Assembly (NCBI RefSeq): GCF_000014565.1
Contig: NC_008268.1
Coordinates: 4,340,001 to 4,404,000, forward strand
From: Rhodococcus jostii RHA1
Lineage (GTDB): Bacteria > Actinomycetota > Actinomycetes > Mycobacteriales > Mycobacteriaceae
DNA: 64,000 nucleotides
Direction of reading: 5' to 3'
The notes under the pieces were generated by a model. The model did no database searches. It was not told the origin of the DNA and saw nothing but the letters and a program-made list of their open reading frames with translations. The stretch's first letter is position 1; the number at the start of each line of letters is the position of its first letter. A program made the translations under genes and the position numbers. Below are positions 43,910 to 45,154 of this stretch, piece after piece.

Positions 43910-45154
43910 GTGAATGCCGTAGTCCCGACCCCGCCCGATCCGTTCTTCACCGTCGGTACCCGACTCGACGGGCAGCTGGGTCGTACCGGAACCATTCACA
44001 CCCCACACGGCGACATCGCGACGCCGTCGTTCGTCGCCGTCGGCACCAAGGCCACCGTCAAGGCGGTGCTGCCTGAGAGCATGAAGGAGCTGGGCGCGCA
44101 GTCGCTGCTCGCCAACGCCTACCACCTGTACCTGCAGCCCGGGCCGGACATCGTCGACGAGGCCGGCGGTCTGGGCAAGTTCATGAACTGGGACGGCCCG
44201 ACGTTCACCGACAGCGGCGGATTCCAGGTCATGTCGCTGGGCGTCGGGTTCAAGAAGGTCCTCGCGATGGAAGCCGTCGGGGTACGCTCCGACGACGTCA
44301 TCGCGAAGGGCAAGGAACGCCTCGCGACCGTCGACGACGACGGTGTGACGTTCAAATCGCACCTGGACGGGTCGCGGCACCGGTTCACGCCCGAGGTGTC
44401 GATGCAGATCCAGCACCAGCTCGGCGCCGACATCATGTTCGCGTTCGACGAGCTCACCACGCTGCTGAACACCCGCGGGTACCAGGAGCAGTCGGTGGAG
44501 CGGACGCAGGCGTGGGCGGTGCGCTGCATCGCTGAGCACGAGAAGCTCACCGCCGAGCGCGCCCATCGCCCGTACCAGGCGCTGTTCGGGGTCGTGCAGG
44601 GCGCGCAGTACGAGGACTTGCGCAGGCAGGCCTGCAGGGGGCTGGAGTCGATCACGGGGGAGAGCGGCCGCGGTTTCGACGGGTACGGCATCGGCGGGGC
44701 GCTCGAGAAGCAGAACCTCGGCACCATCGTCCGGTGGTGCAACGAGGAGCTTCCCGAGCACAAGCCGCGGCACATGCTCGGCATCAGCGAGCCGGACGAC
44801 TTCTTCGTGGCCATCGAGAACGGCGCCGACACGTTCGACTGCGTGAATCCGTCGCGGGTCGCGCGCAACGCCGCGATCTACCACCCGGACGGCCGGTTCA
44901 ACATCAACACCAGCCGCTTCCGTCGTGACTTCACGCCCATCGACGAGAACTGCGATTGCTACACCTGCGCGAATTACACCAGCGCCTACATTCACCATTT
45001 GTTCAAGGCGAAGGAAATGCTGGCGTCCACGCTGTGCACCATCCACAACGAACGCTTCACCGTCCGGCTGGTCGATCAGATCCGCGCCAGCATCGAAGGC
45101 GGCTACTTCGACGAGTTCAAGGCCGAAACCCTGGGCCGCTTCTACCGCACGTGA
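43910..45154 (+). CDS. tgt: tRNA-guanine transglycosylase, atypical
   Basis: 414 residues, about 40 longer than usual bacterial TGT. It exchanges G34 in GUN-anticodon tRNAs for a 7-deazaguanine. Asp101 ([13 protein letters not shown]), Asp180 (AFDE), nucleophile Asp310 ([14 protein letters not shown]) and the zinc ligands Cys348, Cys350, Cys353, His379 are all present. Differences: a 20-25-residue insertion after [10 protein letters not shown] (about 111-140), and the base-recognition loop GGLAVGE of characterised enzymes reads GGALEKQ (262-268). The GTG at 43910 is the likely start. The TGA stop is inside the downstream hairpin. Confidence 0.9.

Follow-up and report, generated by a model that had tools for sequence, protein, structure and literature searches.

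The tRNA-guanine(34) transglycosylase (TGT) of Rhodococcus jostii RHA1 that is encoded in the stretch of DNA analyzed here (64,000 nucleotides, referred to as the window) probably inserts scavenged queuine, and not preQ1, directly into tRNA. This base is predicted with fairly high confidence from the features of the protein, the gene content of the genome and its kin, the neighboring genes, and a parallel with Chlamydia trachomatis. We infer the base used by the enzyme as well as the roles of its base-pocket loop and of an insertion. The gene and the relevant parts of its product are located as follows:

43910..45154, + strand: tgt, insert-type (probably queuine-type) tRNA-guanine(34) transglycosylase (PF01702, TIGR00430)
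44210..44227, + strand: DSGGFQ, residues D101 to Q106, with D101 equivalent to E. coli D89 (alignment)
44243..44317, + strand: insertion, residues ~112–136, net gain of 25 residues versus E. coli TGT, within the equivalent of E. coli L98–I104 (alignment)
44453..44455, + strand: L182, equivalent of Z. mobilis C158 and E. coli C145 (alignment)
44693..44713, + strand: GGALEKQ base-pocket loop, residues 262–268 (alignments)
44837..44839, + strand: D310, equivalent of E. coli D264, the residue of the covalent tRNA intermediate (alignment; role of D264: PMC13416341)
44951..45046, + strand: zinc site C348, C350, C353, and H379 (alignment)

The open reading frame, which is an intact, full-length TGT, encodes 414 amino acids from a GTG start (43910) or 418 from a TTG start (43898). 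The protein scored 416 bits against PF01702 in the profile search and passed the bacterial TGT equivalog TIGR00430 (413.6 bits, cut-off 306.75). It remained below the cut-off of the archaeosine TGT model TIGR00432 (104.7 bits, cut-off 350) and did not match DpdA (NF041059) at E up to 0.001. In the genome scan (9,702,737 bases, four contigs), the window's tgt was the sole TGT match. The best 120 of 7999 scored relatives shared 80–93% identity with the window TGT, and those bearing species names were mostly from Rhodococcus, Rhodococcoides, Prescottella, Antrihabitans, and Nocardia. The TGT signature of two catalytic aspartates and a CxCxxC...H zinc site is present in the alignment; as the first-pass annotation had stated, these residues are intact, D101 and D310 being aligned with their E. 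coli counterparts and C348, C350, C353, and H379 with C302, C304, C307, and H333. Fold searches with the predicted model returned, among the best 50 rows listed in each, bacterial TGTs including a queuine-bound mutant; QTRT1 was not among these rows, and the two TGT types were not separated in this way. Two other Actinomycetota TGTs, of genomes G035 (L041:4901-6172, + strand) and G192 (L050:4915-6033, + strand), are devoid of the zinc cysteines. A sulfatase-family open reading frame (window positions 41920-43995, − strand; PF00884, 143.5 bits) is oriented divergently from tgt; its true start is probably located further in, because its longest form overlaps the tgt start.

The base-pocket loop, which reads GG-AL--EK in the alignment with E. 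coli TGT, is three residues shorter than GGLAVGE. Whether GGALEKQ might fall outside the base pocket was answered by the alignment and the predicted model (mean pLDDT 89.6), which place it in the base-pocket loop with a strand (258–261) before and a helix (267–280) after it. The one-to-one replacements of Glu by Gln and of Val by Glu proposed earlier do not hold, since the shorter loop does not allow such a residue pairing; E266 is adjacent to the Glu column of GGLAVGE. A Glu-to-Gln exchange was also rejected as a full explanation: PDB titles list Z. mobilis E235Q, including a preQ1-bound form (2z1v, 2z1x), so that this exchange alone does not point away from preQ1. The full-length pattern GG-x-x-V-G-E was found in 68 of the 69 canonical rows parsed, and the window TGT is without this preQ1-type loop. 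Among 74 loops of the window form (the window protein entered twice; the pattern did not capture seven rows, six canonical and one of a second form, which are uncounted), GG and the lysine at position 267 were retained in all and E or D at position 266 in 65.

The insertion of 20 to 25 residues described after DSGGFQ was recovered in the alignment as a net gain of 25 residues between L110 and L138. It faces L98–I101 of the E. coli enzyme and is bordered by hydrophobic residues on both sides (L110 for L98, L138 for I101); within it, residues 112–116, 118–121, and 131–135 are low-confidence stretches of the model. In E. coli, L98–I104 form a dynamic loop that is disordered without tRNA and becomes ordered upon tRNA binding, stacking on the flipped-out A37 (PMC13416341). 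Because the insertion is situated inside this loop, altered tRNA contacts are likely, as judged from its position; it is to this extent that the earlier suggestion of different tRNA contacts is supported.

Both features are real. They are a group trait of related TGTs and not peculiar to this gene. The insertion and a GG-A-x-x-K loop occurred together in 36 aligned rows, 35 from the window's class (the window protein twice) and one from another class (G035), and were common to every full-length TGT read from the window's class except the divergent TGT of G160. Their joint recurrence in the related TGTs read argues against chance. Of the best 80 of 587 named TGT loci, 39 were insert-type and 41 were not. 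Within these 80, the insert-type loci of Actinomycetota (L084-L113) included Nocardia, Mycobacterium, Mycolicibacterium, Arthrobacter, Kocuria, Rothia, Brachybacterium, Brevibacterium, Aeromicrobium, Tsukamurella, Bifidobacterium, and others, and those beyond the phylum were from Patescibacteria (L114-L118, L120), an unplaced bacterium (L119), Longicatena caecimuris (L132), and Trueperaceae (L136). In L. caecimuris, a QPTR gene directly precedes tgt. A second insert form with the loop GG-S/T-L-G was present in eight Actinomycetota genomes of the phylum sample, and seven aligned full-length Chlamydia-like TGTs (two of them named by source as Victivallaceae and Babeliales) carried an insertion at this site along with GG-S-L/V-G. 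On the sequences compared, the insertion and the short loop mark a TGT group that occurs across Actinomycetes and has variants among Chlamydiae, Patescibacteria, and other lineages.

In a tree of 96 rows, 54 insert-type sequences were located on one side of one branch and 42 others on the opposite side (SH-aLRT 93). The tree was calculated with a quick method, is unrooted, and excludes the insertion and loop columns. The canonical TGTs of Actinomycetota are part of the alignment and not of the tree, the fragment P0137 was excluded, and the divergent TGTs of G160 (L038, no match in the extraction) and G249 (not fetched) are outside both. This tree does not establish that the insertion was gained once, because the midpoint, which serves for drawing only, groups the canonical rows with the Chlamydia-like and second-form rows. 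According to PMC11570991, the TGTs of tgt-only bacteria, save those of Bartonella and Pelagibacter, are distant from a branch that unites E. coli, Bartonella, Pelagibacter, and human enzymes.

The gene content of the genome favors queuine. No match to QueG (TIGR00276), QueH, QueF, or QueC was found in it at E up to 0.001. A true QueA is missing as well, since its single QueA-family gene (C1:263878-264897) scored under all three equivalog cut-offs (160.5 of 324, 128.9 of 267.45, and 68.5 of 588 bits). The genome is thus without QueC, QueF, QueA, QueG, and QueH (the search did not extend to QueD and QueE), and the combination of QueA with QueG or QueH, by which a preQ1-type pathway finishes queuosine (Q), is not found. 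For the same reason, the synthesis of preQ1 in the cell followed by its completion to Q was rejected. Indirect salvage via QueL was discarded, too, because it would regenerate preQ1, for which QueA and QueG or QueH would still be needed. The Q nucleosidase Qng1 was not found in the window's genome; the family was detected in five of the eight genomes with the second insert form, all five belonging to one family (f42). Characterized Qng1 members release queuine (PMC11130926), a parallel that speaks for this base.

The same association was found across the phylum. In 198 Actinomycetota genomes of at least 95% completeness, TGT was present in 125, of which 108 had a canonical, 16 an insert-type, and one (G160) a divergent enzyme; all 16 insert-type proteins were read as sequence, as were 33 of the canonical ones, the other 75 being typed by match length. 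A strong QueA (E up to 1e-95) occurred in 108 of the 108 genomes with canonical TGT, in none of the 16 with insert-type TGT, and in no TGT-negative genome. The genomes are kin to each other, so that the Fisher value calculated for this contrast should not be read as a true probability. The counts represent few independent events, given that the type falls on one side of one branch of an unrooted tree, and this weakens their support for queuine insertion. In the sample of the window's class, 42 of 158 genomes had a TGT: 38 insert-type (34 read as sequence, four assigned by match length), two broken at contig ends (G299, G326), and two divergent (G160, G249). A strong QueA was present in none of the 42. 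The Que profiles were applied to 57 genomes, among them 39 insert-type genomes (including G035 and the two with TGTs broken at contig ends) and 12 canonical comparators. Neither QueG nor QueF exceeded its cut-off in any of the 39 (QueG: partial matches of 18–52 bits in four genomes, cut-off 200; QueF: one partial match of 20.7 bits), and QueH was found in none of them. Several contained short partial QueC matches of 18–27 bits, some of which exceeded the 22-bit cut-off; full-length QueC scores 167–256 bits. The canonical comparators had QueG or QueH over the cut-off in 11 of 12 cases. The absence of QueF and QueC does not separate the two TGT types, since QueF was over the cut-off in only two and full-length QueC present in only one of these 12 comparators.

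The QueA-like gene of the window's genome (also L053:4970-6562, − strand) belongs to a group of QueA-like proteins (PF02547, up to 277 bits) that provide the sole QueA-family match in 35 of the 198 Actinomycetota genomes. It is considered a paralogue, because 34 of these 35 genomes with a weak best match have no TGT and at least 12 canonical genomes hold a weak copy beside a strong QueA. Besides scoring below the three cut-offs, it is missing from the remaining 10 TGT-positive genomes in the window's family and occurs in the four TGT-negative ones, so that it was rejected as the missing QueA. That such a QueA relative occurs mostly where there is no TGT to serve suggests that it acts on another substrate. 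The divergent TGTs are located near full-length QueC genes (G249:C1:4008634-4012776, which also includes QueF, and G160:C1:4520354-4536414) in genomes where neither QueA nor QPTR was matched; these loci perhaps serve 7-deazaguanine DNA modification or a secondary metabolite.

Two further genes of the window are related to queuosine:

45198..45938, − strand: QPTR (YhhQ/COG1738), queuosine precursor transporter, convergent with tgt, with 43 bases between them
48580..49536, − strand: gluQ, glutamyl-Q tRNA(Asp) synthetase GluQRS (NF004315, TIGR03838), 3.4 kb from tgt

QPTR exceeded the cut-off of TIGR00697 (109.4 bits, cut-off 50.95) and scored 172.1 bits against PF02592, but reached only 46.6 bits with the model for 7-cyano/7-aminomethyl-7-deazaguanine transporters (NF008406, cut-off 252). 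The gluQ product passed both of its models (NF004315, 339.8 bits, cut-off 250; TIGR03838, 297.4 bits, cut-off 276.7). Within the window's family, QPTR and GluQRS were over the cut-off in all 11 TGT-positive genomes and neither was found in the four TGT-negative ones, which all belong to a genus (g2) that also holds five of the 11 TGT-positive genomes. In the class sample, QPTR was present in 25 and GluQRS over the cut-off in 16 of the 42 TGT-positive genomes, versus none of 17 TGT-negative genomes in either case (17 of the 116 negatives were covered). GluQRS was also over the cut-off in six of the eight genomes with the second insert form. In the flanks of the best 80 of 587 loci (up to 6 kb, some shorter), QPTR accompanied 17, GluQRS seven, and QueA none of the 39 insert-type loci, versus QueA in 26 of the 41 other flanks. 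As to riboswitch control, no Rfam match at the gathering threshold was detected between positions 40500 and 51000 of the window, and none of the window's four tRNAs (Ser, Arg, Ser, Ser) is a substrate of TGT. GluQRS attaches glutamate to the Q of tRNA-Asp (PMC11332805), so that Q is the expected end product. With TGT and GluQRS present in the absence of QueA, QueG, and QueH, this Q should come from the direct insertion of queuine, barring an unknown route. The evidence for queuine in this genome is thus the lack of QueC, QueF, QueG, QueH, and a true QueA in the presence of GluQRS and QPTR.

In the proposed mechanism, QPTR would import queuine, TGT would exchange guanine-34 of GUN-anticodon tRNAs for it, and GluQRS would subsequently add glutamate to the queuosine of tRNA-Asp. 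The shortening of the loop from GGLAVGE to GG-AL--EK would remove residues, including the Val, that leave no room for the cyclopentenediol in enzymes of the preQ1 type, and the insertion probably re-makes anticodon contacts or a lid around the larger base.

The closest parallel is C. trachomatis, for which we used a sequence that we take to be its TGT and to which two fragments are 100% identical. Like the window enzyme, this protein has an insertion after DSGGFQ and a base loop (GG-SLGKN) shorter than GGLAVGE, in this case by one residue instead of the three missing from GG-AL--EK. The Chlamydia insert is shorter than that of the window, and the two show no sequence likeness by eye. As in the window's genome, the TGT is partnered by a QPTR, and enzymes that finish Q from preQ1 are lacking (PMC11570991); TGT and QPTR of C. 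trachomatis are said there to use only queuine. The motif published for queuine-type enzymes, GG[LS][AS]G (PMC11570991), is not literally matched by GGALE of the window, which counts against queuine, although GGSLG of Chlamydia departs from it letter for letter as well. A further reservation is the identity of only 35–36% between the window TGT and the two Chlamydia-type TGTs compared. Overall, genome content and the Chlamydia parallel give good support to the first-pass annotation's proposal of a different incoming base, with queuine favored, whereas its mechanism via Glu and Val exchanges was wrong in detail.

The canonical preQ1-type enzymes of Zymomonas mobilis and E. coli differ from the window TGT in having an intact GGLAVGE and no insertion. 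They carry a cysteine (position 145 in E. coli, 158 in Z. mobilis; PMC3660597) where the window protein has Leu182. The Z. mobilis variant C158V/V233G has a larger pocket but did not gain queuine insertion (PMC3660597). In E. coli, queA adjoins tgt, whereas the window's tgt adjoins QPTR. The eukaryotic queuine TGT, QTRT1, has QTRT2 as a partner and is not known to contain an insertion. It shares with the window enzyme the family (226–235 bits) and the predicted base. Room for the base is provided by Gly232/Gly233 of human QTRT1 where bacterial TGT has Val (PMC6165067), and would be provided in the window enzyme by the shortened loop; figure 3 of PMC11570991 groups QTRT1 with E. coli and Bartonella. 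The insert-type TGT may represent a different solution for accepting this base.

An alternative is that imported preQ1 (or preQ0) is inserted and left in the tRNA as the end product, a scheme put forward for Bartonella henselae, which like the window's genome has tgt and QPTR without QueA, QueG, and QueH and contains traces of preQ1 in its tRNA (PMC11570991). The E. coli QPTR carries preQ0 and preQ1 (PMC11570991). Further support comes from Bifidobacterium. Both Bifidobacteriaceae TGTs read (L108 and that of B. boum, L110:5854-7173, + strand, loop GG-AIEK) are insert-type, yet a B. breve transporter, HlyIII, carries preQ0 and preQ1 in E. coli (PMC11130926), which also speaks against queuine insertion. 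The TGT of B. breve has been called canonical (PMC11130926), so that either this label or the queuine reading for Bifidobacterium may be in error; a PF03006 match that would indicate HlyIII beside the B. boum tgt was not found among the five L110 open reading frames scanned. However, the Bartonella TGT, unlike that of the window, keeps GGLAVG and prefers preQ1 (PMC11570991), the window's QPTR is well under the cut-off for preQ0/preQ1 transporters, and GluQRS, which acts on Q, goes together with TGT within the family of the window. We therefore regard lasting insertion of imported preQ1 as unlikely.

Somewhat more improbable still is a mixed specificity, in which an enlarged pocket would accept queuine and preQ1 along with further 7-substituted 7-deazaguanines, the choice of base depending on import. 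Such behavior is known from Bartonella, whose TGT and QPTR work with preQ1 and also with queuine if its concentration is high (PMC11570991), and the enlarged pocket of Z. mobilis V233G leaves the Km for preQ1 unimpaired (0.6 against 0.9 µmol/L; PMC3660597), but the C. trachomatis TGT, which combines an insertion with a short loop, is described as using queuine exclusively (PMC11570991). It is very improbable that loop and insertion drifted neutrally in a lineage whose TGT is of the usual preQ1 type and persists by inertia. Common ancestry alone could account for the features, given the position of the insert-type sequences on one side of one branch; the invariant GG and K267 of the loops, the contrast in QueA between insert-type and canonical genomes, and the joint absence of tgt, QPTR, and gluQ from the four TGT-negative genomes of the family argue against it. 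Direct queuine insertion remains the preferred explanation, although 26 of the 42 TGT-positive class genomes lack GluQRS over the cut-off and 17 lack QPTR. An assay of an actinobacterial insert-type TGT was not found in the literature searched.

Two parts of this picture have been published before: the salvage of queuine by bacteria of this kind, and the placement of TGTs from tgt-only bacteria on a branch of their own. Most Actinomycetota in a human-gut set are without QueA and QueG or QueH and are predicted to salvage queuine (PMC11130926), and in Mycobacteriales tgt is the only gene retained by most species (PMC11570991). The insertion or the GG-A-x-E/D-K loop was not mentioned in the literature covered, which did not include figure 3 and Table S2 of PMC11570991, where the loop may be displayed; in the available text of that paper, the only "insertion" is that of preQ1. 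The pairing of insert and short loop, its association with the missing QueA, and the tie to GluQRS were likewise not found in print.

The specificity of TGTs is, in our judgment, not yet readable from sequence with confidence. It is hard to predict because the Z. mobilis C158V/V233G variant is no queuine inserter (PMC3660597) and Bartonella does not fit its gene content (PMC11570991). The short loop and the insertion in the tRNA loop are two elements that engineering may have lacked, and they would provide a simple rule for predicting queuine users. The insert-type features of the Bifidobacterium TGT suggest that the enzyme should not be called canonical on present grounds. It is conceivable, and we propose it only tentatively, that insert-type TGTs represent a second, ancient bacterial lineage built for queuine by a short loop and a new tRNA clamp, ranging from Actinomycetes (including Bifidobacterium) to Patescibacteria and Chlamydiae. 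If so, eukaryotes would have arrived at this specificity by another route, the exchange of Val for Gly, dependence on the queuine of others would be widespread outside host-bound pathogens, and many actinobacteria would be consumers of a micronutrient made by their neighbors.
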